The translations under genes were made by a program, and so were the position numbers. The notes under the pieces were generated by a model, which did no database searches, was not told where the DNA came from, and was given only the letters and a program-made list of their open reading frames with translations. This document shows positions 1,534-51,448 of a DNA stretch of 64,000 nt, piece after piece. The DNA is from Bacillota bacterium (GTDB taxonomy: Bacteria; Bacillota; Clostridia; Ch29), in NCBI GenBank assembly GCA_013540605.1, contig JABVCK010000027.1, forward strand, positions 62,001 through 126,000. Reading direction: 5' to 3'. Position 1 is the first letter of the stretch; each line of letters opens with the position of its first letter.

Positions 1534-4500
1534 TCATTTCAATATGATCCTAACTTTGCTTTCATCTTTACCCTTCGTTAGTTCACGGACATACTTCTCA
1601 AATCTCGTCCTGATATCCTCTACAGTGACAGGACCATCTCCCGATATTGCTTTTTTCATATCCTCAACAAGCACTTCAACCTTTTCAAGTCCCTTCATCA
1701 AAGTGTTTACGCCAGATATGAAATTGCCGTCAATAGCGTCAGGCAATCTCCTCGTCTCAAGCAGTTTATTTATGACATTTTGTTGCTCTGATTTGAGGAA
1801 GGCAATATTCTCCTTCACCATTGGATCCTCAACACTGGTGACAATAATTTCTGTCCACTCTTTATATATCCTGTCAATGTCGTCTTCGATGCCATCTAAA
1901 ACCCCGTGGACAGGCTGATTATTCTCTGAAGGATTAAACTGGCAGTGAGGACACATAAATTTACCTTCCATATCTTGCTGGGTAAGATTATAACAAGTTC
2001 GGAGCCGTGAAATTTTTTCTTGGATTCCGTTTAGCTTGACTACTGGAAGTATGTCATCTATAGCAGTGAGCTTCTTAAGATTGTTAAACTCTTTACTTTG
2101 CATAACTTTTTTCTTTGCATTGTCCCCGTTTAAATCAAGTCTGTGCTTCTTATGAAGCTCCATATAGACATTTCTATATTCATCTTTCAGACCCGATAAT
2201 TCGCTATTGAACACCCGAATAAAATCTTCATCAATAGTATCAAGGTTCTTTAAGGCTGTTTCCAGCTTCAGCTTCAAAGCATTTACCTTTTCAACCCATG
2301 CCTGATCCTTTAATACGATTTCTGCTCCAGACAGATACGTTGTATTAGCCTCAATCTTGGATTTTAAATCCTTTATCTTATCAATATCGGCAATTAACTT
2401 TAAGGCAGTTCCTTGTTTATCAATTTCTTCCTCTGTGTATCTAAAATTCTTCAGCTTCGCCTGGGTGTTGAAAATTTTTAAGCCGTCAAGGAAGTTCTTG
2501 AATTCTTTGATACTTTCTTTATAGCTATCAACTTTATAGGATTCCATTGAAGATTTTCCCCAAACGGATATATCCCCGTTCAAGAAAAGAACGGCTTTTA
2601 AAGCCTTATCAATGTATTCATCAACTTTTACAAGCATACTTGCTACGGCAGCATCCCTTGTATTTGCCGTAACAATGGCTCCAGGTGCCAATCCCAGCAT
2701 TTCAAACAGCTTCTTTAATACATCTAAAGGAATATCCTTGGGTTTGCTACAGTGCTTAAAGTCCATTAGATTTGCTGTGTTTTCAGCAGCCAGTTCTTTA
2801 AGCATAGTGGCAGTAAACTCTTTCCCGCCTGCTGTCAATGTAATATCACCGTTATATACCAATGCAGACAAAATCAGTGCAACCCAGATAGGCTCCAGCT
2901 TAAACTTTGAATCATATTCCACTTCTTCATTAATTCTTACAATAATGTCTGACCTGTTCAAGACCTTGCCTTGCGGCAGTTTGTTGATCAAGTCAATAAA
3001 ATATCTGGCATAGTTTGAGCTTTTTGGAGAGATGGTATCTCCCTCTAATAACTGGAAGGAGTCAAGCAATTTTGCACCTGTATCGGTCTTCTTGCCTGCA
3101 ATATAATCCAGGCCGTTCCTGAAAACCTGGTTGATATTGTTAGATGTCACCGTAAGTAAAAACTTCGGATATTCTCTATACAGGTCAGAAAACCATACAT
3201 TCAGACAAGTAGAAGAAGCCATATCTACCTGCTCCTTCAATGTCCTGTCACCAAGCCTTCTTCCTTTGATCCAGGTCAATATGCTTCTGCTTTCTCCCTT
3301 ATATCTGACACTAAAGCATTGGTTAATATTCTGCCGTATCCATTTGATAGCAGATTTCTGATACTCTTCAGCTTTTTTAATATAAGCAGCTTTGCTTTCA
3401 CTTGAAGATATTTCCGCCATTGAAAGAGCAGCTGTATACATTTTTATAGCATACTTGATTTCTTCATTGGAGCCATCAAACTCAAAGAATACTTCATCTT
3501 CTTTCTTATCATCTTTTAACTCTACATTTCCATAAGGAGGCAGAAAGTATATATAGAAGTCTCTCGGAGGCTGTGTGGTTGACCTTTCCTTCGGATCGCC
3601 CATAAAAAGGTATCCGAACCTTGTAATATTCTTTTCTTCCCACAGCAGCTCATATTCCCATATTTTAAATCCCGTTCTATACTCTGGAGCGTTCCATTCC
3701 AACGTTTTGAGAATTAGCCCGTAATAGTATTCATTCAGCCTGTCATCATCGAGAATGTCGGCCTTCTGTTGTATTTTAGCGTTATAGTCAATATCCTTCT
3801 TCAAATCAAGGTAATATTGCTCATTCTCCTGATTATACTCAATAAATTGCCCACTGACAGTGTTGGAGATTTCTCTCATTACAGTCTCAATCGTTGTGAT
3901 AAGAAAATCTTCTTCCTTCTCTGGAAGCAAAGGATCATATATACACAAATCGTCCTTCATATTTTGAACAGTAATGCCCAAAGGAGCATTGATATTACCC
4001 GTAGTTAGCCTGTGAACACTTAAGGCATAAATGATCCTCAAAGCAATAGGCTTGTATTTTGGTTTGGTAAAGGAATGCTGAATAATCCCTTCCAAAATGC
4101 CGCTCTTATCGATAACATCCTTAACATCGGTTTCAGTTCTCTTTGAAGGACTGTTTTTTATGTATGACCAATAAGCATCGTAGGAAACAAGCCCAGGCTC
4201 TTCGTTTGGTACTTCGCTATCAAGCATTTCCTTTATGGTGAGTGTTATGGTCTTTAATACCTCTCTTTTTTCGGCTATGTATACCTTTTCAAAGGTTTCA
4301 AGATACGCTGGATGTATTGGGTAGAGGTTAACATACTCCTCAATCCTGTCAGCCATGTTTTTATACATCGGGCTGAATTTCTGAAGGTGTTCTCTTATCC
4401 AGGCTTTCTGCTCATTATTTTTTTGCAGTAATCTTTGAGAGACAACGAAAGAAATGTCCTCTCTTCTGATAATGATCTGTTCAAATCTATCCTTAACTTT

Positions 4501-10096: not shown

Positions 10097-10159
10097 ATTA
10101 CATGCCTCTCCTTTTGTCGTATTTTTTTGCTGCCCGGTCCCTTTTGTCCCTCCAATCAC

Positions 10160-10272
10160 TCAGAGGATTTGTTAGACCTCTTTCGGTAGCAGCTTACCGC
10201 AGGACTATCCGCCGAATTTTCGATAAGTCCCGGTCCTCGTCTACTCCTTTTCAAGGAGTACTGGCGCTTTAA
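10160..10272 (-). ncRNA. glmS ribozyme/riboswitch
   Basis: On the minus strand the leader contains AGCGCCAG just after the expected cleavage point, then GACGAGGACCGGG, TTATCGA and TTCGGCGGAT, the conserved core of the glmS self-cleaving ribozyme. P3- and P4-like hairpins follow (CGGTA..TACCG and AGAGG..CCTCT). Cleavage uses glucosamine-6-phosphate as cofactor and leads to mRNA decay. It ends about 60 nt before the glmS start. Confidence 0.93.
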
Positions 10273-10350
10273 CGTTTCTAAATTTATATTCTTTACACCA
10301 CCTCCCTACGCGGTTTTACACGGTTTTCCGGTTTATCACCCCCTTCCATC

Positions 10351-12154: not shown

Positions 12155-12183
12155 TTGACAATTTTTGATGCAGGTACTAGAAT
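12155..12183 (+). promoter_or_regulatory. Promoter of the homocysteine operon
   Basis: TTGACA (12155-12160), 17-bp spacer, TAGAAT (12178-12183). It ends 24 bp before the SAM riboswitch, so the transcript would begin just before the aptamer. Confidence 0.75.
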
Positions 12184-12207
12184 TAGATTTAAATTAATAG
12201 CATTTTC

Positions 12208-12318
12208 TCATCTAGAGAGGTGGAGGGACTGGCCCTGTGAAACCTCGGCAACCTTCAGATTTTCCTGAAAAGGTGCCAATTCCAGCAGCGGGAATGGATA
12301 CGCCCGCTGAAAGATGAG
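12208..12318 (+). ncRNA. SAM-I riboswitch (S-box)
   Basis: P1 is formed by CTCATCT (12208) and AGATGAG (12312). Between them is the canonical S-box core: AGAGGTGGAGGGACTGGCC, ATGAAACC-like TGTGAAACCTCGGCAACC, and GGTGCCAATTCCAGCAG. A terminator follows at 12353. High SAM should stop transcription before the homocysteine genes. The aptamer is nearly identical to the one at 18823-18928 on the other strand. Confidence 0.97.
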
Positions 12319-12352
12319 GGGGGTAAAGGTTAATCCAGTGAATATTTTGGAG

Positions 12353-12380
12353 ACCTCTTTCATCTGAAAGAGGTTTTTTT
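12353..12380 (+). terminator. SAM-riboswitch expression-platform terminator
   Basis: ACCTCTTTC / GAAAGAGGT stem (12353-12361 with 12366-12374) with a 4-nt loop and a run of T, 27 bp before the coding start. Confidence 0.9.
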
Positions 12381-12406
12381 ATTTTCCAGTCAAGGGGGTA
12401 ATCAAA

Positions 12407-13582
12407 TTGTCCAGAGTATTTAGAACCTATGATGAAATCAATGAAAGAATAAGAAATGGTGATGCCGTAGTATTTACCGCAGAGGAATTCAAGCAGCTTG
12501 CGGATGAGCAGGGCATCAGAGAGGCGTCAAGACGGGTTGATGTGGTCACTACCGGAACTTTCAGCCCAATGTGCTCTTCCGGTGTTTTCCTCAACTTCGG
12601 CCACAGTGATCCTCCGATAAAGATGTCCAGGGTATGGCTCAACGATGTCCCGGCTTATACCGGCCTTGCCGCTGTTGACGCTTACCTGGGGGCCACGGAG
12701 CTTTGCGAAGGAAGCCAAAGCGAATACGGCGGAGCCCATGTAATAGAAGACCTTGTTTCAGGTAAGCAAATCCGGTTGAAAGCGTTAGGATGCCGGACAG
12801 ACTGTTATCCCGCAGAAAGGGTTGAAACCTATGTGGATAAGAGCAGTTTAAACGAATGCATTCTTTTCAACCCGCGGAACGCGTATCAGAACTATTCGGC
12901 AGCAACCAATTCCACCGGTGAAACCCTGTACACATATATGGGAACTTTGCTTCCCCGCTTTGGGAATATAACCTATTCAACCTCGGGTGAACTAAGCCCG
13001 TTATTGAACGACCCACAATTGAGAACCATCGGGGTTGGTACGAGGGTATTTCTGGGAGGAGCCCAGGGTTTCGTCGCCTGGAACGGTACCCAGCACAACC
13101 CCGAAAAACCCCGGTCGGAAAACGGTACTCCGATAGGCCCCGGGTGTACCTTGAGCCTAATAGGCGATTTAAAGGACATGAGCAGCTCCTTCATCAAAGC
13201 TGCGGTCTTTCACAACTATGGGGTAAGCCTCTTCGTCGGTGTGGGTATACCGATCCCTGTCCTCGACGATGAGATGGCCCGCTTCCTTGCAGTAAGGGAC
13301 AGGGATATTAAAACCCACCTTGTTGACTATGGCGTCCCAAGGCGAAGCCGGCCGTCCTTAAAAATCGTGGACTATGAACAATTAAAATCCGGCACTCTGC
13401 TGCTGGACGACAAGAGGGTTCCTACGGCCCCGTTGTCCAGTATGTATAAGGCCAGAGAGATTGCGCATATCCTGAAAATGTCTATAATACGGGGAGAGTT
13501 CTTCATACAGGAGCCTGTTTCCCCGCTGCCGGGCTTGGGCTCGGTAAAGCCGCTAAACGTAAAGGAGTGTGAGCTATGTTAA
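12407..13582 (+). CDS. Homocysteine biosynthesis protein (COG1900, HcyBio; L-aspartate semialdehyde sulfurtransferase)
   Basis: A 391-residue protein of the HcyBio/DUF39 family, which in methanogens works with a NIL-ferredoxin to insert sulfide into aspartate semialdehyde and form homocysteine. Conserved cysteines are visible at residues 56 (SPMCSSG) and 129/133 (GCRTDC), candidates for persulfide chemistry. The start is a TTG, 8 nt after GGGGG; no better start lies nearby. It is the first gene behind the SAM-I riboswitch, overlaps the next gene by 7 nt, and the next two genes are its usual partners. Family assignment is firm. The exact sulfur donor and activity in this organism are inferred. 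Confidence 0.9.
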   Translation: MSRVFRTYDEINERIRNGDAVVFTAEEFKQLADEQGIREASRRVDVVTTGTFSPMCSSGVFLNFGHSDPPIKMSRVWLNDVPAYTGLAAVDAYLGATELCEGSQSEYGGAHVIEDLVSGKQIRLKALGCRTDCYPAERVETYVDKSSLNECILFNPRNAYQNYSAATNSTGETLYTYMGTLLPRFGNITYSTSGELSPLLNDPQLRTIGVGTRVFLGGAQGFVAWNGTQHNPEKPRSENGTPIGPGCTLSLIGDLKDMSSSFIKAAVFHNYGVSLFVGVGIPIPVLDDEMARFLAVRDRDIKTHLVDYGVPRRSRPSLKIVDYEQLKSGTLLLDDKRVPTAPLSSMYKAREIAHILKMSIIRGEFFIQEPVSPLPGLGSVKPLNVKECELC

Positions 13583-14004
13583 AGGAAAGATATACGCTGG
13601 TATTCCCTCCCGAGAGTTCCACAAAACCCATTACGTACCTGTTGATAAAACAGTACGATATAGAAGTCAATATTTTGAAAGCGGAAATTACCGCAGGAAA
13701 GGAAGGGCACCTGCTCATAGAGGTAAGGGGAGAAGAAGGCAATCTCAGGGATGGCCTTGAGTTTCTAAAAAGCGAAAGGATCAATGTCCTGCCGCTGGTC
13801 GATCAGATAAGCTTAAGGGAAGAGGAATGCGTGCACTGCGGTTCCTGCACGTCAGTATGTTTTTCGGGTGCTCTCACAATGGATAGGGATACCTGGATGG
13901 TAAATTTTGACCCCGGTGAATGCGTTGCCTGTGGACTTTGTGTGCACTCATGTCCTCTCAAGATCATAAATATCAACTTTGGGCAGGATGATGTATATGA
14001 ATAA
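13576..14004 (+). CDS. NIL-domain ferredoxin (homocysteine biosynthesis partner)
   Basis: A 142-residue protein: an N-terminal NIL domain (about residues 1-75, also found in methionine-uptake ATPases, thought to bind amino acids) and two 4Fe-4S motifs, CVHCGSCTSVC near residue 89 and CVACGLCVHSC near 119. This fusion is the partner of COG1900 in the methanogen homocysteine pathway, where it is proposed to supply reducing power. AAGGAG lies 9 nt before the ATG, and the gene overlaps the upstream stop, so the two are translationally coupled. Cytosolic. Confidence 0.9.
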   Translation: MLKERYTLVFPPESSTKPITYLLIKQYDIEVNILKAEITAGKEGHLLIEVRGEEGNLRDGLEFLKSERINVLPLVDQISLREEECVHCGSCTSVCFSGALTMDRDTWMVNFDPGECVACGLCVHSCPLKIININFGQDDVYE

Positions 14005-14767
14005 AGCTTACCAGCCAAGGTTCTACAGAAACGCTTTGAAAAACGGGAGATTTTCTTCCTTCACGGTGATGTACAGGGAAACGGACCTGTGGGTATCCGT
14101 GCCGGAACAGGATGCGGGTGAGCGGCTCAGGAAGCATATCTATAATAGGGTTGTTGAACTTAGAAAACATATGGACGAGTACATAAGCAGAGACCCCGGG
14201 TTTTTGACTGCCCTTGAACCCTATCCTGTCCCGGACGATGCCCCTGGAATCGTGAAGGCCTGCAGCCTGGCTGGAGAGCTGGCAGGGGTGGGCCCCATGG
14301 CTGCAGTTGCCGGTGCCTTTTCCCAGGCTGTAGGAGAGGATGCCGTAAGCGAATTTGGCATAGATGGAATAATAGTGGAAAATGGCGGTGATATATACGC
14401 ATCCTTTAAGCAGCCGCTGTCACTATCGATATACGCAGGCGGTTCTCCACTATCCGGCAGAATAGGCTTTGAAATCGATCCTTCCCTCTCCCCCCTTGGA
14501 ATATGTACATCGTCCGGCACCGTAGGCCATTCTCTGAGCTTTGGCAAGGCGGATGCGGTTACGGTAATGTCGGCAAACGCAGCGGTCGCCGACGCCTTTG
14601 CCACTATGCTATGCAACCGCGTTAAGTCAGCAGCGGATATTGCTCCTACCCTTGAGCTGTCCGCCGCTTATGAAGTCCTTTCGGGTACAATTATTGTGCT
14701 GGGAGACAAAGTAGGCGCCAGAGGCAACATCAAACTCATACCCTTAAATCACATCAGTGGCTACTGA
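13997..14767 (+). CDS. UPF0280 family protein (COG2122, ApbE-like)
   Basis: A 256-residue protein of COG2122, distantly related to the flavin transferase ApbE. In methanogens a COG2122 gene has been linked genetically to sulfide use for homocysteine. Visible features include a conserved VENGGDIYA and a late AVADAFATML. The start at 13997 is chosen because AGGA lies 8 nt before it; in-frame ATGs at 13988 and 13991 have no such site. It overlaps the NIL-ferredoxin stop by 8 nt, so all three genes form one operon under the SAM riboswitch. The reaction is unknown. Confidence 0.85.
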   Translation: MNKAYQPRFYRNALKNGRFSSFTVMYRETDLWVSVPEQDAGERLRKHIYNRVVELRKHMDEYISRDPGFLTALEPYPVPDDAPGIVKACSLAGELAGVGPMAAVAGAFSQAVGEDAVSEFGIDGIIVENGGDIYASFKQPLSLSIYAGGSPLSGRIGFEIDPSLSPLGICTSSGTVGHSLSFGKADAVTVMSANAAVADAFATMLCNRVKSAADIAPTLELSAAYEVLSGTIIVLGDKVGARGNIKLIPLNHISGY

Positions 14768-14783
14768 TGTGAAAAGCTAAATA

Positions 14784-14816
14784 CGCCGGGGAAGATGTCC
14801 CCGGCGGTTATTTTTT
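14784..14816. terminator. Terminator between the two convergent methionine operons
   Basis: A 9-bp GC stem CGCCGGGGA / TCCCCGGCG (14784-14792 with 14798-14806) with a 5-nt loop and a T-run on the plus side. On the minus strand it lies just past the stop at 14808, so it may serve both operons. Confidence 0.85.
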
Positions 14817-15491
14817 GCATGCCCATGTGATACAGCTGCTGCAGGTGTGTTCCCCGCTGCACAGCCCTTTAGACCTGTTCCCTTCAGGATAACTCTGTTT
14901 AACCGGTTTGCCGGACCATCCGACCAGCGCAGTTACCGATTTTACCGGTTCCAGGATATAGTTCCCATTGATCCTTATATCCGGTTCTGTGTTAAGCAAA
15001 TCGATAATCCTTTTCTGGTCCTTCAGGTCCCAATCTCCATAACCGGGACTGTATCTAAGGGTAGGGTACAGCCCTTTAGCAGAGTATTCCCTCTCCAGGA
15101 ACCGGAAGAAATCATCTGTTACAATTTCCACAGCGCTTGACCCCAGAAGGTCCGCCACCGTTCCTTCCCAGTGCCTTCCGGCTCCCATGCAGGCGGAAGA
15201 GTATTGGGGAAGCCTGCCCCCTATGGTGGCGGCCATAATTGTGACCCTTCGCGCCCCTTCGATGCCTTGGGCAAGATAGATGCTTTCAAACTCCATCCTA
15301 TCGTCGCCCGGCAGCACCAGCCGGTCTCCTGCTAACTCCACCGGCATATCCGCCCAATATATAACGGGTTTAATCAATTTGCCGAGTTCTTCTATCCTTT
15401 CCTCGGCTCCCTTAAGCTCCGGACACCTTGCAACTATGCGGCAGGTTTTTATATCCATGCTTGAGCCTGTCAGCCTACGAACATTTTGCAT
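14808..15491 (-). CDS. Stand-alone MetH activation-domain protein
   Basis: A protein of about 227 residues resembling the C-terminal B12-dependent methionine synthase activation domain, with the SAM-site-like signature YSPGYGDWDLKDQ near residue 150. In E. coli this domain is part of MetH and uses SAM to re-methylate oxidised cobalamin. The MetH encoded in the same operon stops after its B12 domain, so this gene plausibly supplies the function in trans. The C-terminus ends in a Cys-rich CSGEHTCSSCITWACKK, which could hold a metal. The start is uncertain: ATG 15491 (GAAGG upstream) is preferred over GTG 15503. It overlaps the end of metF. Confidence 0.82.
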   Translation of the reverse strand: MQNVRRLTGSSMDIKTCRIVARCPELKGAEERIEELGKLIKPVIYWADMPVELAGDRLVLPGDDRMEFESIYLAQGIEGARRVTIMAATIGGRLPQYSSACMGAGRHWEGTVADLLGSSAVEIVTDDFFRFLEREYSAKGLYPTLRYSPGYGDWDLKDQKRIIDLLNTEPDIRINGNYILEPVKSVTALVGWSGKPVKQSYPEGNRSKGLCSGEHTCSSCITWACKK

Positions 15492-16359
15492 ACTCGCCTT
15501 CACCCTTTAGAATGGTCTCGACCATAGAAATATCGCCCATAGGGAATATATGTATCCCCGGTACGGTTTTTTTCATCTCGGTGTACAGTTCCCTTGCTAT
15601 CTCAATGCCCGCATTCCTCCCCTTGGCCTGCAGCATGTCTACAAACCTATCCGGAACATGGACGCCCGGCACGTTATTGTTCAGGTAGTGGGCGAGCTTA
15701 GCGCTTTTCAAAGGCAGCAGCCCGTAAATCATAGGCACGGGTATTGATGAAGATATATCCAGGAATCTTTCCAGCCGGGACAGGTCAAAAACCGGCTGGG
15801 TCTGGAAGAACATGACCCCTGCATCCACCTTGGCCTTAATCCTTTCCATCTCTTTATCCAGGTCTTCTGCGCCGGGATTCGCCACAGCGCCGATAAAGAA
15901 GTCCGTCCTGCAGTCCAGCTCATTATCCATCATATCATAACCCTTGTTCAGCTTGCCAGCCATGCGGATAAGGCCTGTTGAATCGACGTCAAACACGCCC
16001 TTTGCCCGGGGGTGGTCTCCCACTTTAGGGTCATCCCCGGTTAATGAAAGTATATTGTTGACTCCAAGGGCATAGGCGCCGAGGAGTTCGGACTGCAGCC
16101 CTATAATGTTTCTGTCCCTGCATGTGAGGTGAAATACAGCTTCCAGTTTCAGCTCTTCCTGTACCAGATGCGCCAGTGCTATAGGACTCATGCGCATTCT
16201 GGCCATAGGGCTGTCGGCTATGTTTACGGCATCCACCATATTTGCCAGCGGCCGCATCCTATCGTAAACCCCCCAGGGACTCGCCCCCTTCGGCGGGTCT
16301 ATCTCGACTGTAATCACAAACTCATTTCTACTCAGTTTTTCCCTCAAAACATCAGCCAT
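15475..16359 (-). CDS. metF: Methylenetetrahydrofolate reductase
   Basis: A 294-residue TIM-barrel flavoprotein reducing methylene-THF to methyl-THF, the methyl donor for MetH. Recognisable signatures are VITVEIDPPKG at the start, HLTCRDRN near residue 78, ILSLTGDDP near 105 and FFQTQPVFD near 185. The ATG has GGGGGAAG upstream and lies inside the last codons of metH (8-nt overlap), and the next gene overlaps its end, so the three are one translationally coupled operon under the minus-strand SAM riboswitch. In anaerobic Clostridia the enzyme may also serve one-carbon energy metabolism; here the context is methionine. Confidence 0.95.
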   Translation of the reverse strand: MADVLREKLSRNEFVITVEIDPPKGASPWGVYDRMRPLANMVDAVNIADSPMARMRMSPIALAHLVQEELKLEAVFHLTCRDRNIIGLQSELLGAYALGVNNILSLTGDDPKVGDHPRAKGVFDVDSTGLIRMAGKLNKGYDMMDNELDCRTDFFIGAVANPGAEDLDKEMERIKAKVDAGVMFFQTQPVFDLSRLERFLDISSSIPVPMIYGLLPLKSAKLAHYLNNNVPGVHVPDRFVDMLQAKGRNAGIEIARELYTEMKKTVPGIHIFPMGDISMVETILKGEGEYAKCS

Positions 16360-18757
16360 TATGCTTCCCCCTTAAGTGTTCAACTATTCTTACAGCACTA
16401 ACCGCGTCCTTGCCGTACCCATCAGCACCGGCTTTCAGCGCGAAATCCTCTGTCACAACCGCTCCCCCGGCGATTACCCTGATTCCAGGAACAGCTTCCT
16501 TCAACCGCTTTATGGTGATAGGTATCTCAACCATAGTGGTCGTCATAAGCGCACTAAGGGCAGCAACCTCAGCTTTCTCTCTCTTCGAAGCATTGATAAA
16601 CTCCTCCGGCGTTACATTTTTCCCAAGGTCTATCACCCTATACCCGCTGTTTCTCAGCATGACCGCAACCATGTTCTTCCCTATATCGTGAATATCACCC
16701 TTTACAGTTCCAATGACCACGGTTCCTTTGTTGTGGTAAACCCCGGCTTTCTCAAAGCATCTTTCCAGTACGGCAAAGGCCCTTTGGGCGGTTTCCGCAC
16801 TGAGCATAAGCTGCGGCAGATAAATCTGCCCCTCTTCAAACCTGTCGCCGGTATAGGCCAAACCCGGGACCAGGGCCATATCGATTATCTCCTGTGGACT
16901 TTTGCCTTGGTGCAGCAGGGCTTCAACCGCCTCCTCTATCCTCTGGGATCCCTTAATAATCATGCTTCGGACAGCCTCCAGGGTATGCCGGCCGCTGTCT
17001 TCATTTCTTTGCTCAGGTACGTTTCCGCTATCACTGTTATGTTTTAAATAATTCATTGCATGGCGGTCCCTTCCGGCTAAAAGGCATGCCGCCTGCCAGG
17101 TATCCATAATGCCGGCGTCCATCGGATTGACTATTGCAAGGTCAAGACCCCCGGCAATCGCCATGGCGAGAAAGGCCGTGTTGAGTTTACCCCTTGAAGG
17201 CATTCCGTGGGATACGTTGCTAATGCCAAGAACCGTTCTGACGTTCAGATTATCCTTAACCATTCTCAGGGCCCTCAGGGTTTCAACCGCCATGCCGGCG
17301 CCCGTTCCTGCGGCCATCACCAGGCAGTCTATATATATATCTTCAATTGGAATCCCGTGCTGCACACAGGACCTTACGATCTTCTCCGCTATCGCGTACC
17401 TTCCTTCAGCGCTTTCGGGAATACCGCTCTCATCCAGGGTCAAACCGATTACACCCGCACCATAACGCTTTATTATAGGAAGAGTCGCTTTCAGGCTGCT
17501 GTCATCGCCGTTCACCGAGTTCACCAGGGCCTTCCCGTGATATGCTTTTAACGCCTTTTCCAGCACCCTCGGTTCTGTAGTATCGAGCACGATAGGAGCA
17601 GCTATATTTTGCTGTAATAGGTTTACAAGCCTTGTCATTACTGCCGCTTGGTCTATTCCATGTACACCTGCATTTATGTCTATCAAGTCTGCGCCTTTCT
17701 CTACCTGATTTTCGGCCTCTTCCTGTATTACCCCATAATCACCCTTTATCAGGCTTTCCCTGATATTCTTTCTTGCTGTGGGATTGATCCTTTCCCCAAC
17801 TATTACCGTAGGACGGTTATCACCTATCACGATTACATTCTCTCTGCTCGCCAGTGTGCTCACCTTTTCGTATTTACGGGGTCCAGGGGCATAACTATCA
17901 GCCCGCTTCCTGAGCGACCTTGTATAATCCGGCGTACTGCCGCAGCATGAGCCCAAAAGGTTTATCCCCAGCTGGAAATAGGGTTCCATTTTTGTTTTAA
18001 AGGTCTCCGCATCCATCGAATAGACAGCCTTTCCATCCTTCATTATGGGAAGGCCGGCATTGGGCTGTATTATTACGGGCAGACCGGTGCTGTTTAGCAT
18101 CTGCTCGGCAACTATCAGCAGTTCCTGTGGTCCCCCCGAACAGTTTGCGCCTACGGCCGCCGCTCCGAGGCTGCTCATTACAACCGCCGCGCTTGCAGGG
18201 CTGACCCCGGTCAGGGTGCGTTCTTTATTAAACGTAAAGCAGCATATTACCGGTATACTGCATGTATCCCTTGCTGCAAGAAAAGCTGCCCTGATCTCTC
18301 CCATATCACTGAAGGTTTCCAGCAGGATAAAGTCCGGCCCTGCCGCTGCGATCGCCTCAACCTGTTCCCTGAAGACTTCATAGGCTTCATCAAAGGCTAA
18401 GTCTCCTACCGGATATACAAAATGTCCGGTAGGCCCTACCGATGCAGCAACCAGCCTCCCTTTGTCCCCGGCCGCTTTTCGGGCGATTTCCACAGCCCGG
18501 CCGTTGACTTCTTCCACCCTGTTCCCCAATCCATACTCTGCCAGTTTTATTCGGTTGCCCCCAAAGGTATTTGTGGTAATCACATCCGCGCCTGCTTCGA
18601 TATAGGCGCTGTGGATCTCCAGGATTTTCTCCGGGGCTTCAATATTCATCATCTCGGGACACTCTCCCGGTTTTAACCCGGCATTTTGAAGCATTGTTCC
18701 CATAGCCCCATCGAATATCAGGACCCTTTCAAGTTCCTTTCCGTATGCCACTGCCAT
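16352..18757 (-). CDS. metH: Cobalamin-dependent methionine synthase, lacking the activation domain
   Basis: A protein of about 801 residues against about 1200 for E. coli MetH. Domain order: homocysteine S-methyltransferase barrel (about 1-300, zinc ligands in GANCSGG and GSCCGSTP), pterin-binding domain (about 315-580, GERINPTARK), B12 cap (about 600-675) and B12-binding domain with the lower-ligand motif DIHDIGKN near residue 710. The chain ends after the B12 fold. The activation domain is encoded separately two genes downstream. Start: ATG 18757 has AGGAG only 2 nt away; GTG 18751 has it at 8 nt and is an equal candidate. A longer frame to 18799 is rejected because it starts inside the riboswitch terminator. 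Confidence 0.95.
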   Translation of the reverse strand: MAVAYGKELERVLIFDGAMGTMLQNAGLKPGECPEMMNIEAPEKILEIHSAYIEAGADVITTNTFGGNRIKLAEYGLGNRVEEVNGRAVEIARKAAGDKGRLVAASVGPTGHFVYPVGDLAFDEAYEVFREQVEAIAAAGPDFILLETFSDMGEIRAAFLAARDTCSIPVICCFTFNKERTLTGVSPASAAVVMSSLGAAAVGANCSGGPQELLIVAEQMLNSTGLPVIIQPNAGLPIMKDGKAVYSMDAETFKTKMEPYFQLGINLLGSCCGSTPDYTRSLRKRADSYAPGPRKYEKVSTLASRENVIVIGDNRPTVIVGERINPTARKNIRESLIKGDYGVIQEEAENQVEKGADLIDINAGVHGIDQAAVMTRLVNLLQQNIAAPIVLDTTEPRVLEKALKAYHGKALVNSVNGDDSSLKATLPIIKRYGAGVIGLTLDESGIPESAEGRYAIAEKIVRSCVQHGIPIEDIYIDCLVMAAGTGAGMAVETLRALRMVKDNLNVRTVLGISNVSHGMPSRGKLNTAFLAMAIAGGLDLAIVNPMDAGIMDTWQAACLLAGRDRHAMNYLKHNSDSGNVPEQRNEDSGRHTLEAVRSMIIKGSQRIEEAVEALLHQGKSPQEIIDMALVPGLAYTGDRFEEGQIYLPQLMLSAETAQRAFAVLERCFEKAGVYHNKGTVVIGTVKGDIHDIGKNMVAVMLRNSGYRVIDLGKNVTPEEFINASKREKAEVAALSALMTTTMVEIPITIKRLKEAVPGIRVIAGGAVVTEDFALKAGADGYGKDAVSAVRIVEHLRGKHNG

Positions 18758-18777
18758 CACTCCTGTGCCTGATAGTA

Positions 18778-18809
18778 AATAAAAATCCCTTCCTGCCAAA
18801 CAAGAAGGG
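18778..18809 (-). terminator. Terminator of the minus-strand SAM riboswitch
   Basis: Minus-strand CCCTTC / GAAGGG stem (extendable to nine pairs with one mismatch) followed by ATTTTTATTT, between the aptamer and metH. Confidence 0.85.
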
Positions 18810-18822
18810 TCTCTTTCAGCTC

Positions 18823-18928
18823 CTTATCTGTCAGAACGAAAGTTCTGCTGGAATTGGCACCTTTTCAGGGTAAACCTGAAGGTTGCCGAGGTTTCACAGG
18901 GCCAGTCCCTCCACCTTCTCTTGATAAG
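18823..18928 (-). ncRNA. SAM-I riboswitch (S-box) upstream of metH
   Basis: P1 from CTTATCA (18928-18922) and AGATAAG (18829-18823). The core reads AAGGTGGAGGGACTGGCC, TGTGAAACCTCGGCAACC and GGTGCCAATTCCAGCAG. It controls metH-metF and the activation-domain gene by transcription termination. Confidence 0.97.
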
Positions 18929-18964
18929 ATTTTATTCAGTTTTCGTTTTAGTATATCATATAGA

Positions 18965-18993
18965 ATACTACCAGCTGCACGCTCATTTGTCAA
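18965..18993 (-). promoter_or_regulatory. Promoter of the metH operon
   Basis: Minus-strand TTGACA (18993-18988), 17-bp spacer, TAGTAT (18970-18965), placing the transcript start about 30 bp before the SAM aptamer. Confidence 0.75.
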
Positions 18994-19154
18994 CATAAAT
19001 TTGATTTCAATGTAAAAAAAATGTAAAAAATCGGTGGGTTTTTACACCAGAACCAAATTTCACATATGATGAATCGTTCGAAACAAGACAGGTCCGGAAT
19101 CCCTAGCTGCAGCATAATATGGTAGTACCGCCTGTTGTTAAAGGAGTAGATGTT

Positions 19155-20585
19155 ATGTTAATCCAGGGTAAGGGCTTTAACCCTTCAAGCTTCAGGAAGC
19201 TTGTGGTGGGAATAGACAAAAGGATACCCCTCGCTTCCGGAAAGAGTTCCAGGTACATAAACCTTGACAACGCCGCAAGCACTCCAACGCTGTATCCGGT
19301 TATGGATAGGCTGAATGAATTCATGGATTGGTACTCAAGCGTACACAGGGGTACCGGGTTCAAATCCATGGTTTCCACGCAGGTTTATGACCATGCCCAT
19401 GAAATCGTAGGCAGATTCGTTAATGCAAACCCTGTAACCAATACCGTAATATTTGTGAAAAACACCACCGAAGCCATAAACAAGCTGTCGTACCGGCTAG
19501 GTCTTTCAAAGAATGATATTGTAATAACTACAACCATGGAGCACCATTCCAACGACCTCCCGTGGAGGTCGAAGGCACAGGTTGTTTATATAAGCGTTAA
19601 TGAAGACGGGTCCCTTAACTACCATGATCTTGAAGACAAAATCAAGGCGCACAGGAACAGGTTAAAGCTGGTTGCGGTGAGTGGAGCATCTAATGTCACC
19701 GGGTATAAAAACGACATACATAGAATTGCTTCTCTGGCCCATAGGGCCGGTGCGCCGGTATTTGTCGATGCTGCCCAACTGGCTCCCCACTCACCGGTTG
19801 ATATGAAGCCGGACGGCCACCCTGAGCATATAGACTACCTTGCATTCTCTGCCCATAAAATTTATGCGCCCTTTGGCACAGGGGTACTGATCGGTCCGAA
19901 GAGGACCTTTGAGAGGGGCTGTCCTGAATACTCCGGCGGTGGAACCATTAAAATAGTAACTCATAGCGGCGTTGAATGGGCTCCGCTTCCCGATAAGGAA
20001 GAGGCCGGTTCACCCAACGTTGTAGGTGGTGTTGCATTGGCTATTGCGCTGGAATACTTGAGGAAACTGGGAATGGACAGGATAGAGGAATATGAGAAAA
20101 GCTTGACCTCTTATACACTGCAAAAGCTCAAAGAAATCAAGGGTATAACCATATACGGGGAAAACGACCCCCAAAGGCTCGATAACAGGGTGGGTGTTAT
20201 AACCTTTAATCTTAAAGGGATTCCCCATTCCCTGGTAGCTTCTGCCCTGGCCTGGGAGGGAGGAATAGCGGTTAGGAACGGATGCTTCTGCGCACACCCA
20301 TATATTCTAAAACTGCTTAACCTCAGCGATGAGCAGGTATCTATGATACAGCACAGGATCAGGGTCGGGGACAGAAGCGAAATACCGGGAATGGTCCGCA
20401 TAAGCCTTGCGGCTTACAATAATAAAAGGGATATAGACAGGACCGCTGCCATCCTTCACCGGATTAACGGCATGGCAGAGTCCGGTGAGCTTTCAAAAAG
20501 GTATGAACTGTCAAGGGAGACGGGTTCTTATCGCCCCGTAGATGTGGAGGTAAAATTCGATAGGTTTTTCAGTTTCAGCCGGTAG
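19155..20585 (+). CDS. Aminotransferase class V, cysteine desulfurase-like
   Basis: A 476-residue PLP enzyme of the SufS/NifS type. The PLP lysine lies in AFSAHKIYAPFGTGVLIG near residue 235, a conserved His in TTTMEHHSN near 130, and a Cys pair in VRNGCFCAHPY near 390 near where SufS-type enzymes carry the catalytic Cys. It would take sulfur from cysteine as a persulfide; a related lyase reaction cannot be excluded. The start is ATG 19155, with AAGGAG 8 nt upstream; the in-frame ATG at 19119 has no ribosome site. It is a single gene, divergent from metH, with a hairpin after it. A role in FeS or sulfur supply for the neighbouring sulfur genes is inferred. Confidence 0.85.
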   Translation: MLIQGKGFNPSSFRKLVVGIDKRIPLASGKSSRYINLDNAASTPTLYPVMDRLNEFMDWYSSVHRGTGFKSMVSTQVYDHAHEIVGRFVNANPVTNTVIFVKNTTEAINKLSYRLGLSKNDIVITTTMEHHSNDLPWRSKAQVVYISVNEDGSLNYHDLEDKIKAHRNRLKLVAVSGASNVTGYKNDIHRIASLAHRAGAPVFVDAAQLAPHSPVDMKPDGHPEHIDYLAFSAHKIYAPFGTGVLIGPKRTFERGCPEYSGGGTIKIVTHSGVEWAPLPDKEEAGSPNVVGGVALAIALEYLRKLGMDRIEEYEKSLTSYTLQKLKEIKGITIYGENDPQRLDNRVGVITFNLKGIPHSLVASALAWEGGIAVRNGCFCAHPYILKLLNLSDEQVSMIQHRIRVGDRSEIPGMVRISLAAYNNKRDIDRTAAILHRINGMAESGELSKRYELSRETGSYRPVDVEVKFDRFFSFSR

Positions 20586-42977: not shown

Positions 42978-43003
42978 ATAGCTACACTAGAAAAATATAG
43001 AAA

Positions 43004-43104
43004 ATAGCAAACCCATTGAAAGATGGAGACGCAAAACCTCGGGTCTAAAAATAGTATCATATCTATGACGGCTTATCATATCTATGACGGCTGGGTTGCC
43101 TATC
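43004..43104 (+). ncRNA. Cyclic di-GMP-I (GEMM) riboswitch with an internal duplication
   Basis: P1 pairs ATAGCAA (43004) with TTGCCTAT (43096). Inside are the GEMM hallmarks: the GAAA-tetraloop hairpin (ACCCATTGAAAGATGG), ACGCAAA, CCTCGGGTCTAA and GGCTGGGTTGCC. The second hairpin arm contains a perfect 19-nt tandem duplication. A terminator follows 32 nt later and a small gene after that, so it should switch transcription of that gene in response to c-di-GMP. Confidence 0.85.
43055..43092 (+). repeat. 19-nt perfect tandem duplication inside the riboswitch
   Basis: TATCATATCTATGACGGCT occurs twice back to back (43055-43073 and 43074-43092). Confidence 0.95.
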
Positions 43105-43482: not shown

Positions 43483-44748
43483 ATGACAACAAAAGCAAAA
43501 AGAATGAGGGACATATATGTTTTTGTCATAGGCTTCAGTATAATCCCTGTTCTCATCCTCACAAAGCCGCACATACAGTTAAATGACATCCTCGAGATGC
43601 TGTTCTGGATTATATTGATTATTATCGCTGAGTTTAAACCGATAATGATACCCCGGTGGAACCAGATAAATGAGATCACTGTTTCCTTCGTGCCCCACCT
43701 GTCAGCTATCTTCCTAATCGGCCCGGATAAATCAACCTGGATTGCCGTTCTTGCTACATTGGTGGTTGAAGCAATATATCGGCGGGCATGGTATAAGGCT
43801 CTGTTTAACGCAGGGCAGTATGGGCTTACGGTTTATATCAGCGGTCTTGCTTTCTATTGGTTAAAATCCTCTCCGGGCGAGGCTTCATTGGATATCCTTG
43901 CGGATTTACCGGCGGTTCTACTGGCATCGAGCATATATATTTTTCTGAATACCTTTTTTATATCGACCGTAATATCCCTATCTTCGGGCAAAGGGCCCCT
44001 GGACATGCTTCCCGAAGACCTGAAATTTACTACAGGGTACTTTTACGCATTGGTTCCCATAAGTATTGTTATCTCAAAAATTTATTCCCACGAGTTCCCT
44101 TTTACAGTGTTAATAATGATACCCCCCCTGATGATGGCCGATTACGGGCTTAGAAAGTATTACAATCTGCACAAGGAAACCTATGAGACCCTGAATGTAC
44201 TGGCAAATATCATAGATGAAAGGGATAAGTATACAGCAGCTCATTCGTTGAGAGTCGCGCAGTATGCTAGAGAGATTTCAGCATCCCTAGGCTTACCCCA
44301 GGGTTTGATAAATGAGATAGAGACTGCAGGGCTGGTTCACGACCTCGGGAAAATTGGTGTCGAGGATAGAATACTAAGGAAAGAAGGAAAACTAACCGAA
44401 GAGGAATACTCTGAAATAAAGAAGCACCCGGAGATTGCGTATCGACTGCTTGCTACGCTTAAGCCATACAAGGAAGGCGCAAAATATGTTCTCTATCACC
44501 ACGAAAGAATGGATGGAAAAGGGTATCCCAGGGGACTATCGGGTAAATCCATACCTTTAGGTGCCAGAATTCTCGCGGTTGCGGACAGCTTTGATGCAAT
44601 GACTTCCAACCGGCCATACCGTAGCGCTCTGACAAAAAATAGTGCAGCGAAGGAATTAAGGAGGTGTTCGGGCACGCAGTTCGACCCTGATGTGGTTGAA
44701 GCCTTTATAAAAATACTGGAGAAGAGTTACGGCTGTGAGGAGGAATAA
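43483..44748 (+). CDS. HD-GYP domain phosphodiesterase, membrane-bound
   Basis: A 421-residue protein: N-terminal membrane region of about six helices (10-215, MASE-like) and a C-terminal HD-GYP domain (about 240-415) with HSLRVAQYA, VHDLGKIG, KKHPEIAYRLL and HHERMDGKGYPRGL, the complete metal-site signature. It probably hydrolyses c-di-GMP, fitting with the c-di-GMP riboswitch 400 bp upstream. ATG with GCGGGGTAGAGAC before it. The stop overlaps the start of the next gene by one base, so the two are co-translated. Confidence 0.9.
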   Translation: MTTKAKRMRDIYVFVIGFSIIPVLILTKPHIQLNDILEMLFWIILIIIAEFKPIMIPRWNQINEITVSFVPHLSAIFLIGPDKSTWIAVLATLVVEAIYRRAWYKALFNAGQYGLTVYISGLAFYWLKSSPGEASLDILADLPAVLLASSIYIFLNTFFISTVISLSSGKGPLDMLPEDLKFTTGYFYALVPISIVISKIYSHEFPFTVLIMIPPLMMADYGLRKYYNLHKETYETLNVLANIIDERDKYTAAHSLRVAQYAREISASLGLPQGLINEIETAGLVHDLGKIGVEDRILRKEGKLTEEEYSEIKKHPEIAYRLLATLKPYKEGAKYVLYHHERMDGKGYPRGLSGKSIPLGARILAVADSFDAMTSNRPYRSALTKNSAAKELRRCSGTQFDPDVVEAFIKILEKSYGCEEE

Positions 44749-46385: not shown

Positions 46386-47369
46386 TTAAATTATCATGTT
46401 GATAATCCTCCCGCATTTATAGCAGGTCCCACTGTCAAGCCTTGGACGTGAGATATACCCATTTCTCTCTATTATCCTTGCCCCACAGGATGGACAGTGT
46501 GTACTATTATCAACATTCGGAATATTGCCTATATATACATAGTTTAAGAACTGTTGAAGTACTTCCCTTGCTTTTATCAGTATTTCCACCGGTGTAGGCG
46601 GTCTGTCCATTTTATAAGCAGGGTAATATCTGGACAGGTGCACTGGTATATCACCGCTGATGGCGCTAATCCAACTGCCCAACTCTGCTATCTCTTCCAT
46701 ATCATCGTTCAACCCTCCCACTACCAGGGTGGTGATTTCAACGTGGCATTTGGGTACGGCTCTCTCCGCCGTGTCCAGTACCGGCGCCAGTTTTCCCTTG
46801 CATATATCCTTATAATAGCTTTCTTTAAAGGATTTAATATCTATATTCATTGCATCTATATAGGGAAGCAGATCCTCCAGTGCTTGCCCCTCGATAAAAC
46901 CGTTTGTCACAAGCACATTGCTCAAGCCAACTTCCTTCACGGCCCTGGCCGTCTCCAGAACATATTCATACCATATGGAAGGCTCGTTGTATGTATAAGC
47001 TATCCCAATATTGCCTTCAATACTTACGGCTTTGTCTGCCAGTTCCTCCGGCAGCATGTATACGAATCGCGGCCTTCCATGGGCAATGGCATAGTTCTGG
47101 CAAAAGCTGCACTTTAGATTGCAGCCGTAACTACCCACGGATAGTATCCTTTTGCCCGGATGAAAGTGATAAAGGGGCTTTTTCTCCACAGGATCAAGAT
47201 TATACGCAGTAAGCTTCCCGTAATTTTCGGTGTAAAGAGTACCCCCGACATTCCGTCTGACACCGCAAATTCCAACATTACCGGGCCTTATCCTGCAGTG
47301 GTGTGGACATAGAAAACAGTCGGTAGTTTCCCCATCCTTAGTATAAAACAGTGCCTCTTTGTTCAGCAT
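46386..47369 (-). CDS. amrS: AmmeMemoRadiSam system radical SAM enzyme
   Basis: A 327-residue radical-SAM protein. The SAM cluster motif is CNLKCSFCQNY near residue 75, followed by GNIGIAYTYNEPSIWYEY and a late second set of cysteines (CPSCGARI, GTCYKCGR). The N-terminus has CFLCPHHCRI. It belongs to the family encoded beside AMMECR1 and MEMO-like genes; together these form a system whose substrate I do not know with certainty. The ATG at 47369 has AGGAAG 8 nt upstream; GTG 47378 is less likely. It lies 12 bp after the AMMECR1-Memo fusion gene. Confidence 0.9.
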   Translation of the reverse strand: MLNKEALFYTKDGETTDCFLCPHHCRIRPGNVGICGVRRNVGGTLYTENYGKLTAYNLDPVEKKPLYHFHPGKRILSVGSYGCNLKCSFCQNYAIAHGRPRFVYMLPEELADKAVSIEGNIGIAYTYNEPSIWYEYVLETARAVKEVGLSNVLVTNGFIEGQALEDLLPYIDAMNIDIKSFKESYYKDICKGKLAPVLDTAERAVPKCHVEITTLVVGGLNDDMEEIAELGSWISAISGDIPVHLSRYYPAYKMDRPPTPVEILIKAREVLQQFLNYVYIGNIPNVDNSTHCPSCGARIIERNGYISRPRLDSGTCYKCGRIINMII

Positions 47370-47381
47370 TAAAACCACTTC

Positions 47382-48791
47382 CTAACGATGTCTGATTACC
47401 TCAAACCTTTCCAGCGTATAAGGTTCAGTGACATTGATACCCGCTTTCTGTAAAGCAATCCTAACCTGATCCTCAGGTGTTTCAACCCCTTCAAGATCAG
47501 GGAGCAGTAGCCCTGACCTTCTCCCGGATTTTACAATAACACCGTACCTTTTTGCATCCAGTTGCTCTATGGTGTCTACTGGTTCAGGCTCTGCTAAAAC
47601 GTCAACCGAATACACCAGTTCATTAAGCTCCTCATCTTCTACCTGGTAAAAGCGTGGATCCTTGGTTCCGGCGCTGATCGCATTATGAATTATCTCCTCG
47701 CTTATACTGCCCGTAGCCGCGCTGATGGTACCGATGCAGCCCCTTAGTTTACCATTTTTCTTGATAGAAACGAATACGCCGGCCTTTCTCTGCGTCATCT
47801 CAGGAGGCAATCCTTCAGGTACGCCGATGACGCGCCCTTCCGTTATATAGGTTTCAAGAGCCTTCCGTGCAAGCCGGACATAGACATCTTCATTCTCCCT
47901 GACTTTTTGCATTTTGCTTTTTCCCCTACTTTCCAAAATATTTATATACTCCCTTTCAAGGTTCCTCCTGCCGGGTAGAAACTCCGCAACACAATATCCG
48001 ACACCAAAGGGACCTTCGTAGGATAAAACACTGACATCAACATCATATCCGTCTAGAATCCCGAAGAGAATAAGAACTGATCGGTACCCGCATTCCCCCG
48101 CTTCTTCCACCAGGGATTCATCCATCTCAATAATGCTTGGGGTATCCATATTCTTTATATGCATAACCAGCTTCTCGTCAAATTCCCTTCCCCTTTCACT
48201 GTACCCCGCAGGCGCTCCCTTTTTCAGCCTGTGGGAAAGGTCTCCGCTGCATACGATGGAAACTCTTTCATTGCCGCTCTCTACAGCTTTTTTTGCACAA
48301 TTCCCGAATCTATATAATTCAAGGTTGGGCAGCATGCCATACGTTATATGAACCAGCTTAAACTCTGTGTATTTTCGATTGACAAAATACAGCGGTACCA
48401 GGGCTCCATGATCTAATTCTGTATTAATCCCATATCTCCTGGATGTTGCACTATCAAGGCTGACTACGGCTATGCCTTCCCGGGCGGCCTCCTCCATAAT
48501 TCTAAAAGTCAAGTCTAAATTCCCTTCCAATGCAAGGGAAAGGTCCGGCTTGCCAAACCGTCCAAAGGTTCCCCTGAACATTTCCTGCACACCGACCGCA
48601 ATCGCATCGCTGAAAACAGGCCCATGGGGCGTTATTAAGATGATTGAATCAGGCTTATCTCTGCTAATACTGTCTGCAATCTCTTCCATAGCCTCAATGG
48701 TATTCCGGGCATTTCTTTCCTCTCCCATACCTATTTCCGGCACTATTATGGGCGGATGCGGCACAAGGTAGCTCTTTAATAATTTGTTCAT
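47382..48791 (-). CDS. AmmeMemoRadiSam system proteins B and A fused (extradiol-dioxygenase-like + AMMECR1)
   Basis: A 469-residue fusion. The N-terminal half (about 1-270) is a class III extradiol dioxygenase/Memo-type domain with HPPIIVPEIG, LITPHGPVFSDAI and a DHGALVPLYF motif. The C-terminal half (about 295-469) is AMMECR1 with GVFVSIKKNGKLRGCIGTI and GTKDPRFYQV. In many genomes these are separate genes; the fusion implies that they act together with the radical-SAM enzyme encoded next. ATG 48791 has AAAGGAGG upstream; an earlier in-frame start would place that site inside the protein. Confidence 0.88.
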   Translation of the reverse strand: MNKLLKSYLVPHPPIIVPEIGMGEERNARNTIEAMEEIADSISRDKPDSIILITPHGPVFSDAIAVGVQEMFRGTFGRFGKPDLSLALEGNLDLTFRIMEEAAREGIAVVSLDSATSRRYGINTELDHGALVPLYFVNRKYTEFKLVHITYGMLPNLELYRFGNCAKKAVESGNERVSIVCSGDLSHRLKKGAPAGYSERGREFDEKLVMHIKNMDTPSIIEMDESLVEEAGECGYRSVLILFGILDGYDVDVSVLSYEGPFGVGYCVAEFLPGRRNLEREYINILESRGKSKMQKVRENEDVYVRLARKALETYITEGRVIGVPEGLPPEMTQRKAGVFVSIKKNGKLRGCIGTISAATGSISEEIIHNAISAGTKDPRFYQVEDEELNELVYSVDVLAEPEPVDTIEQLDAKRYGVIVKSGRRSGLLLPDLEGVETPEDQVRIALQKAGINVTEPYTLERFEVIRHR

Positions 48792-48869
48792 GCTTGTCCT
48801 CCTTTCACACACAAATATATTATCCCCCTTACCCATTAAAACTTACACATACTCTGTTTCAGTATTCTT

Positions 48870-51312: not shown

Positions 51313-51448
51313 TATGCAATAAAAAAGCGCATCCGGCGCTCCGCTATGGAACCCTAGGTTCCCTTCGGCGGTTGCTTCCGCAACCTGAGCACCTTCCTTA
51401 AACCGGCGGGGAACCTTTCCCCTGCACCTCTTCCTTTTTTTGTTGCAT
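51313..51448. repeat. 136-bp structured inverted-repeat element
   Basis: Bounded by TATGCAATAAAAAA (51313) and its inverted partner TTTTTTTGTTGCATA (ends 51448). The inside is GC-rich with many small hairpins: GCGCATCCGGCGC, GGAACCCTAGGTTCC, GGTTGCTTCCGCAACC, GGGGAACCTTTCCCC. An additional direct copy (TTATGCAACAAAAAAA) lies at 51465. It may be a small RNA with a hairpin and T-run at either end, or a non-autonomous repeat. No known RNA family is recognised. Confidence 0.5.

Follow-up and report, generated by a model that had tools for sequence, protein, structure and literature searches.

Two convergent SAM-I-headed operons for homocysteine and methionine synthesis in a member of the Clostridia

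Two operons for methionine synthesis run toward each other in this DNA, each behind a SAM aptamer. The arrangement raises the question whether the COG1900 route to homocysteine is governed by SAM at the RNA level, and whether it is the organism's only route. The L-aspartate semialdehyde sulfurtransferase (L-ASST) pathway and the SAM-I riboswitch class are both already known. In the available part of Price et al. (2018, PMC5764234), the COG1900 pathway is demonstrated by mutant fitness in Desulfovibrio vulgaris and put forward for Dehalococcoides. The first-pass annotation's view of a methanogen-type route under SAM control in a bacterium therefore stands for the SAM-I link, but not for the novelty of the route in bacteria. 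What is new is that COG1900 is repeatedly paired with SAM-I and that one signal would govern two homocysteine routes. The window, the whole 64,000-nt stretch that was analysed (G000:C33:62001-126000), belongs to a genome of 3.35 Mb in 36 contigs with a completeness of 99.55.

Two operons and their leaders

The layout of two convergent SAM-headed operons is confirmed as real, well formed and biologically sensible. It comprises the following features.

12155-12183, plus: predicted sigma-70-like promoter of the hcy operon (TTGACA-17-TAGAAT, 11/12, consensus scan)
12205-12320, plus: SAM-I (S-box) aptamer of the hcy operon (RF00162, 100.9 bits)
12352-12375, plus: terminator stem of the hcy leader, able through its 5' half to form an antiterminator with the 3' P1 strand
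12407-13582, plus: HcyBio/COG1900a, L-ASST catalytic subunit, 391 aa (PF01837)
13576-14004, plus: protein with a NIL domain and two 4Fe-4S ferredoxin domains, 142 aa (PF09383, 56.6 bits; PF00037)
13979-14767, plus: COG2122/PRK04334 family protein, 262 aa (NF003323, 255.5 bits)
14784-14806, no strand: GC-rich hairpin between the two operon ends (folding)
14808-15503, minus: MetH activation (reactivation) protein, 231 aa (profile match to 1j6r)
15475-16359, minus: MetF, methylenetetrahydrofolate reductase, 294 aa (PF02219, 120.1 bits)
16352-18799, minus: MetH with Hcy-, pterin- and B12-binding domains, lacking the activation domain (Pfam)
18787-18809, minus: terminator stem of the metH leader, with an antiterminator formed with the 3' P1 strand
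18821-18930, minus: SAM-I (S-box) aptamer of the metH operon (RF00162, 95.9 bits)
18965-18993, minus: predicted sigma-70-like promoter of the metH operon (TTGACA-17-TAGTAT, 10/12, TG before the -10)

Both aptamers span positions 1-108 of the 108-position RF00162 model with full P1-P4, well above the gathering score of 44.4. The putative hcy promoter is the best of 13 sites found in the region by the consensus scan, for which shuffling gives an expectation of 8.2. In each leader a hairpin and then a U-run lie downstream of the aptamer, and the terminator can be opposed by an antiterminator that uses the 3' P1 strand. The hcy antiterminator is clear (-18.7 kcal/mol, 12-13 bp with G-U pairs; shuffled mean -11.0, 0.2% as low), and that of metH is marginal (-12.5 kcal/mol, 5.8% of shuffles as low). 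Terminators and antiterminators are present again in G004, a genome from another genus of the same family (hcy -18.7 kcal/mol, 0/500 shuffles as low; metH -10.1 kcal/mol, 0.012). By predicted folding, this is the usual arrangement of an attenuator in which SAM switches transcription off. The RF00162 matches and the leader structures support the first annotation in placing both operons under SAM-I control.

The gene identities given earlier were borne out by Pfam, NCBIfam and profile matches in both operons. HcyBio matches PF01837 with 501.8 bits (E=1e-150, cut-off 26.2). The third plus-strand protein matches NF003323, the PRK04334 hypothetical family, at E=5e-76 and 255.5 bits, under the cut-off of 271; we take this family to be COG2122. 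Its solved relative, 2o34, is likewise a hypothetical protein. In an alignment of 7 proteins C56 and C133 of HcyBio are invariant. They lie 77 residues apart, the spacing of Cys54 and Cys131 in MA1821, the L-ASST of M. acetivorans, a comparison of spacing in which MA1821 itself stands outside the alignment. In the available text of PMC12068725 Cys54 of MA1821 is essential and Cys131 is the second of the pair.

In the minus operon the true start of MetH is probably an ATG or GTG some 40-50 nt inside the open reading frame. MetH scores 496.2 against the NCBIfam whole-MetH model, below the cut-off of 1010.85, because that model spans the activation domain, which is encoded separately here. The full MetH domain set (Hcy-, pterin- and B12-binding domains and the activation module) is present, with the activation module in trans. 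The activation protein has no Pfam or NCBIfam match; a 3-row profile finds the solved fragment 1j6r, 'METHIONINE SYNTHASE', at E=6.8e-21. The split activation protein of the 1j6r type is presumably that of Thermotoga. Across both operons the gene set from sulfide and aspartate semialdehyde through homocysteine to methionine is complete, as had been proposed.

The pathway very probably falls under two SAM-I riboswitches, each attenuating transcription of one half of it. At low SAM the 3' P1 strand would base-pair with the upstream arm of the terminator, so that no terminator forms and the operon is read; at high SAM P1 would be locked and transcription would stop before the first gene. The plus operon would make L-ASST from HcyBio and the NIL-ferredoxin protein, with COG2122, and this enzyme would form homocysteine from aspartate semialdehyde with sulfur taken from sulfide. 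Methylation of homocysteine would then fall to the minus operon (MetH, MetF and the activation protein).

The hairpin between the operon ends (9 bp, about -20 kcal/mol) has z-scores of -3.7 on the plus strand and -4.6 on the minus strand. Its U-run is good on plus (GTTATTTTTT) and weaker on minus (TATTTAGCTTTT). The earlier suggestion that one hairpin ends both operons is therefore well founded as to a strong hairpin between the ends and less so for the minus strand. A shared hairpin as a conserved design was rejected, as none was found in G004, where the gene ends nearly abut.

Several other elements lie in the window. A SufS-like cysteine desulfurase/class V aminotransferase gene (19119-20585, plus) is divergent from the metH leader; its G004 copy (L157 3445-4002) is reduced to about the C-terminal third, is preceded by stop codons and looks like a decayed gene. 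A textbook glmS ribozyme (10124-10279, minus, 100 bits) precedes glmS beside glmM. A c-di-GMP-I riboswitch (42996-43103, plus, 65.6 bits) lies ahead of a 421-aa ORF at 43483 that is HD-GYP-like by eye. ORFs at 46386-48836 (minus) resemble by eye the AmmeMemoRadiSam set (radical SAM protein, MEMO/AMMECR1 fusion), and a Clostridiales-2 sRNA is found at 51358-51439 (minus, 75.3 bits).

A second homocysteine route behind a SAM-I aptamer

The window genome contains exactly four SAM aptamers, before hcy, metH, metA-metY and metK. The third heads a classical route on another contig.

C25:220244-222490, minus: metA-metY, probable operon, 48 bp between the genes (NCBIfam)
C25:222636-222745, minus: third SAM aptamer, before metA-metY, with a terminator of its own

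MetA, homoserine O-acetyltransferase, matches MetA_acetyl (NCBIfam 479.9 bits, cut-off 460.5; Pfam 454 bits), and MetY, O-acetylhomoserine sulfhydrylase, matches the PRK08248 homocysteine synthase model (751, cut-off 726). MetX gave no match in this genome; 'absent' is an E-value-based call for MetX, because its model TIGR01392 has matches in 9/14 control genomes and exceeds its cut-off in none. In the metK leader an antiterminator was not seen (0.66 of shuffles as low). A second PF01053 gene (C25:71316-72425) was rejected as a biosynthetic route: it scores best as methionine gamma-lyase and falls under the cut-offs (549.2 against 549.7 for TIGR01328). An ORF that by eye resembles a sigma-54 activator adjoins it.

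The same SAM signal may thus also govern the metA-metY route and metK, and the COG1900 operon would be one of two SAM-repressed entries to homocysteine. Among six family genomes MetA occurs in the window genome only, and in the class it is rarer with HcyBio (18/35, one in pieces) than without it (185/256; Fisher p=0.018, kinship ignored). Two further genomes, G040 and G066, also carry both routes. These observations may point to metA-metY as a later acquisition in the lineage, with the two SAM-controlled routes used under different conditions. Six family genomes are few, and the Fisher test takes no account of kinship; we consider this reading plausible but somewhat short of probable. The same guarded standing applies to the conditions we have in mind, namely sulfide-rich and ferredoxin-driven for COG1900 and acetyl-CoA-dependent for metA-metY.

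Likeness of the two window aptamers

The two window aptamers had been described as almost identical over about 75 bp. This is accurate for the core but not for P1, P4 and the expression platform. The inverted repeat consists of two blocks, 48 nt at 96% and 25 nt at 100%, with arms about 6.6 kb apart. Over a 71-nt core the pair is 95.8% identical with gaps counted, which ranks second of 1326 pairs among 52 aptamers (median 71%); other within-genome pairs reach 67-80% core identity. Over the whole aptamer the identity is about 80-83% (80.5%; 90/108 ungapped columns).

Such likeness could reflect gene conversion, or recombination between the inverted copies that flips the 6.6-kb segment. In their cores the two window aptamers are more alike (0.958) than either is to its G004 orthologue (0.878, 0.892), and within each genome a P3 stem variant is common to both aptamers. 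Against this, P1 and P4 of the window aptamers follow their G004 orthologues, and among 108 ungapped columns of the four aptamers 82 are invariant, 6 vary orthologue-wise, just 3 genome-wise and 17 otherwise. This site pattern, from two genomes, which are too few, does not support gene conversion. The exact repeat is short. In G004 the block is unchanged in gene order and direction, with glmM on one side and the vor genes on the other, and there is no sign of the inversion that had been suggested. Both processes are therefore improbable here. Since P1 and P4 are orthologue-specific, the two aptamers are better read as old paralogues with a strongly kept core.

Recurrence and relation to known systems

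HcyBio was found in 35/291 sampled class genomes and in 2/6 of the family. In six of the 35 (G000, G004, G024, G040, G066 and G072, from five families) the HcyBio match has an RF00162 aptamer on its own strand, 124-151 nt upstream. The other 29 have no SAM aptamer directly upstream of HcyBio, so the SAM-I link is optional. G004 repeats the convergent aptamer pair, the gene order and the flanks, with glmS-glmM on one side and genes that by eye are presumably vor on the other. The NIL-ferredoxin gene adjoins HcyBio in 29/29 class loci examined and COG2122 is present in 28/29, the exception (L025) being an incomplete locus without a match.

Other leader arrangements were seen in the class. G092 has an aptamer downstream of HcyBio. 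In G073 a SAM-I aptamer precedes metY-metX (L048, G073:C52), and its HcyBio has none directly upstream. In G239 a T-box leader (L035 1122-1372, plus) lies upstream of HcyBio, with activation-protein and MetH genes nearby on the other strand; read by the usual convention, its specifier is AUG, for methionine.

The six genomes also bear on the number of routes. G000, G040 and G066 have MetA and MetY; none of MetA, MetY or MetX was found in G004, G024 or G072, and there L-ASST may supply most or all de novo homocysteine because these enzymes are absent. The first-pass annotation had hinted at the COG1900 operon as the only route in the window organism, with a genome free of metA, metB, metC and metY as support; a full route through O-acetylhomoserine with the same SAM control was among the findings that would speak against it. 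Although HcyBio stands behind a SAM aptamer without MetA, MetX or MetY in those three genomes, a sole COG1900 route is extremely unlikely for the window genome itself, because there metA and metY, both above curated cut-offs, form one probable operon behind the third SAM aptamer. Contamination is not indicated, since the tetranucleotide composition of the 260-kb contig C25 (r 0.918, 0.964) falls within the range of six other contigs (0.884-0.961), in a test that is weak in that G004 also gives r=0.928. The COG1900 set should thus not be taken as the sole homocysteine route without a check for metA-metY, and G004, G024 and G072 form the set in which the single-route case can be tested.

Recurrence was also examined in 80 named loci, the best 80 of at least 577 relatives from a GTDB genome scan, with an aptamer model built from 16 aptamers. 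It gave 20 matches and placed an aptamer directly upstream of HcyBio in 15/80 loci, among them Lutispora saccharofermentans (L118), a Thermincola, a Thermacetogenium and one Bacteroidales MAG (68.7 bits in Rfam). An Rfam recheck confirmed 8/9 loci; the ninth, L138, a candidate sixteenth at 29.2 bits, was left out of the positives. Seven of the 15 positives (L077, L081, L083, L093, L106, L109, L111) rest on model R1 alone, and 3/80 loci have less than 350 nt of upstream sequence. In L120, L141 and L078 aptamers are present but not directly upstream of HcyBio. L105 carries two SAM-I aptamers in tandem before HcyBio (2899-3003 and 3165-3267).

An HcyBio tree was built from 110 rows (the window, 29 class loci and the 80 named loci); 5/35 class genomes are missing for want of a locus, and two of these, G066 and G072, carry aptamers. 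The aptamer trait requires 13 changes, at least 7 of them forced by well-supported branches, so it was gained or lost repeatedly. It is also clustered (shuffled mean 17.8 changes; 0/500 as low).

In the available part of Chadwick et al. (2025, PMC12068725), the CBS domain of L-ASST is held to sense SAM and the NIL domain methionine. Pfam finds HcyBio as the sole domain of the window protein and no CBS domain. A C-terminal extension of more than 40 aa occurs in 0/79 named loci with a readable end (1/80 unreadable), and the CBS domain is not taken as a defining feature of the bacterial HcyBio form. With CBS missing from HcyBio and NIL retained in its partner, feedback by SAM through the mRNA would complement the enzyme. 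A strict rule that CBS was lost exactly where riboswitches arose was rejected, because the 79/80 CBS-free named loci include many without an aptamer. More broadly, L-ASST of Bacillota and at least one Bacteroidota may work without CBS, with SAM feedback taken over repeatedly and independently by SAM-I riboswitches and NIL kept as methionine sensor, the window lineage running two chemically different homocysteine routes in parallel through the same RNA signal. We offer this reading tentatively, as a rather unlikely whole.

As a regulatory link, SAM-I control of the COG1900 set is good, though rather ordinary. With it the L-ASST operon joins the SAM-I regulon, and the case that COG1900, NIL-ferredoxin and COG2122 serve methionine synthesis in anaerobic Gram-positives gains independent support from regulation. 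The available text of PMC3766115 gives cysteine and methionine metabolism as the probable role of SAM-riboswitch-controlled genes in Bacillales, Clostridiaceae and Chloroflexi, and COG1900 occurs in it 0 times. Titles, abstract starts and term counts in a partial literature gave no joint description of the L-ASST gene set and a SAM riboswitch; a prior description of L-ASST as a SAM-I target, for example in subscription papers or regulon databases, is possible.

Compared with known SAM-I (S-box, RF00162) riboswitches, those described here have a whole aptamer over the full model, then a terminator with an antiterminator, and methionine genes as targets, including metK, metA-metY and metH. They differ in also heading a COG1900/NIL-ferredoxin/COG2122 operon, a target not found named in the literature searched. 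The minus operon resembles split MetH of the 1j6r type in its separate small protein that matches the solved activation domain, and differs in that the gene for this protein shares with metF and metH an operon that is headed by a SAM aptamer and convergent to hcy. Compared with the L-ASST pathway of methanogens and Desulfovibrio, in the available parts of PMC5764234 and PMC12068725, the same three families (DUF39, NIL/ferredoxin and COG2122) lie in one operon, and window HcyBio has the catalytic cysteine pair of the methanogen enzyme at identical spacing. Unlike M. acetivorans L-ASST, as far as it is described in the available part of PMC12068725, window HcyBio has no C-terminal CBS domain; SAM would instead be sensed by the mRNA, and the NIL domain is kept.
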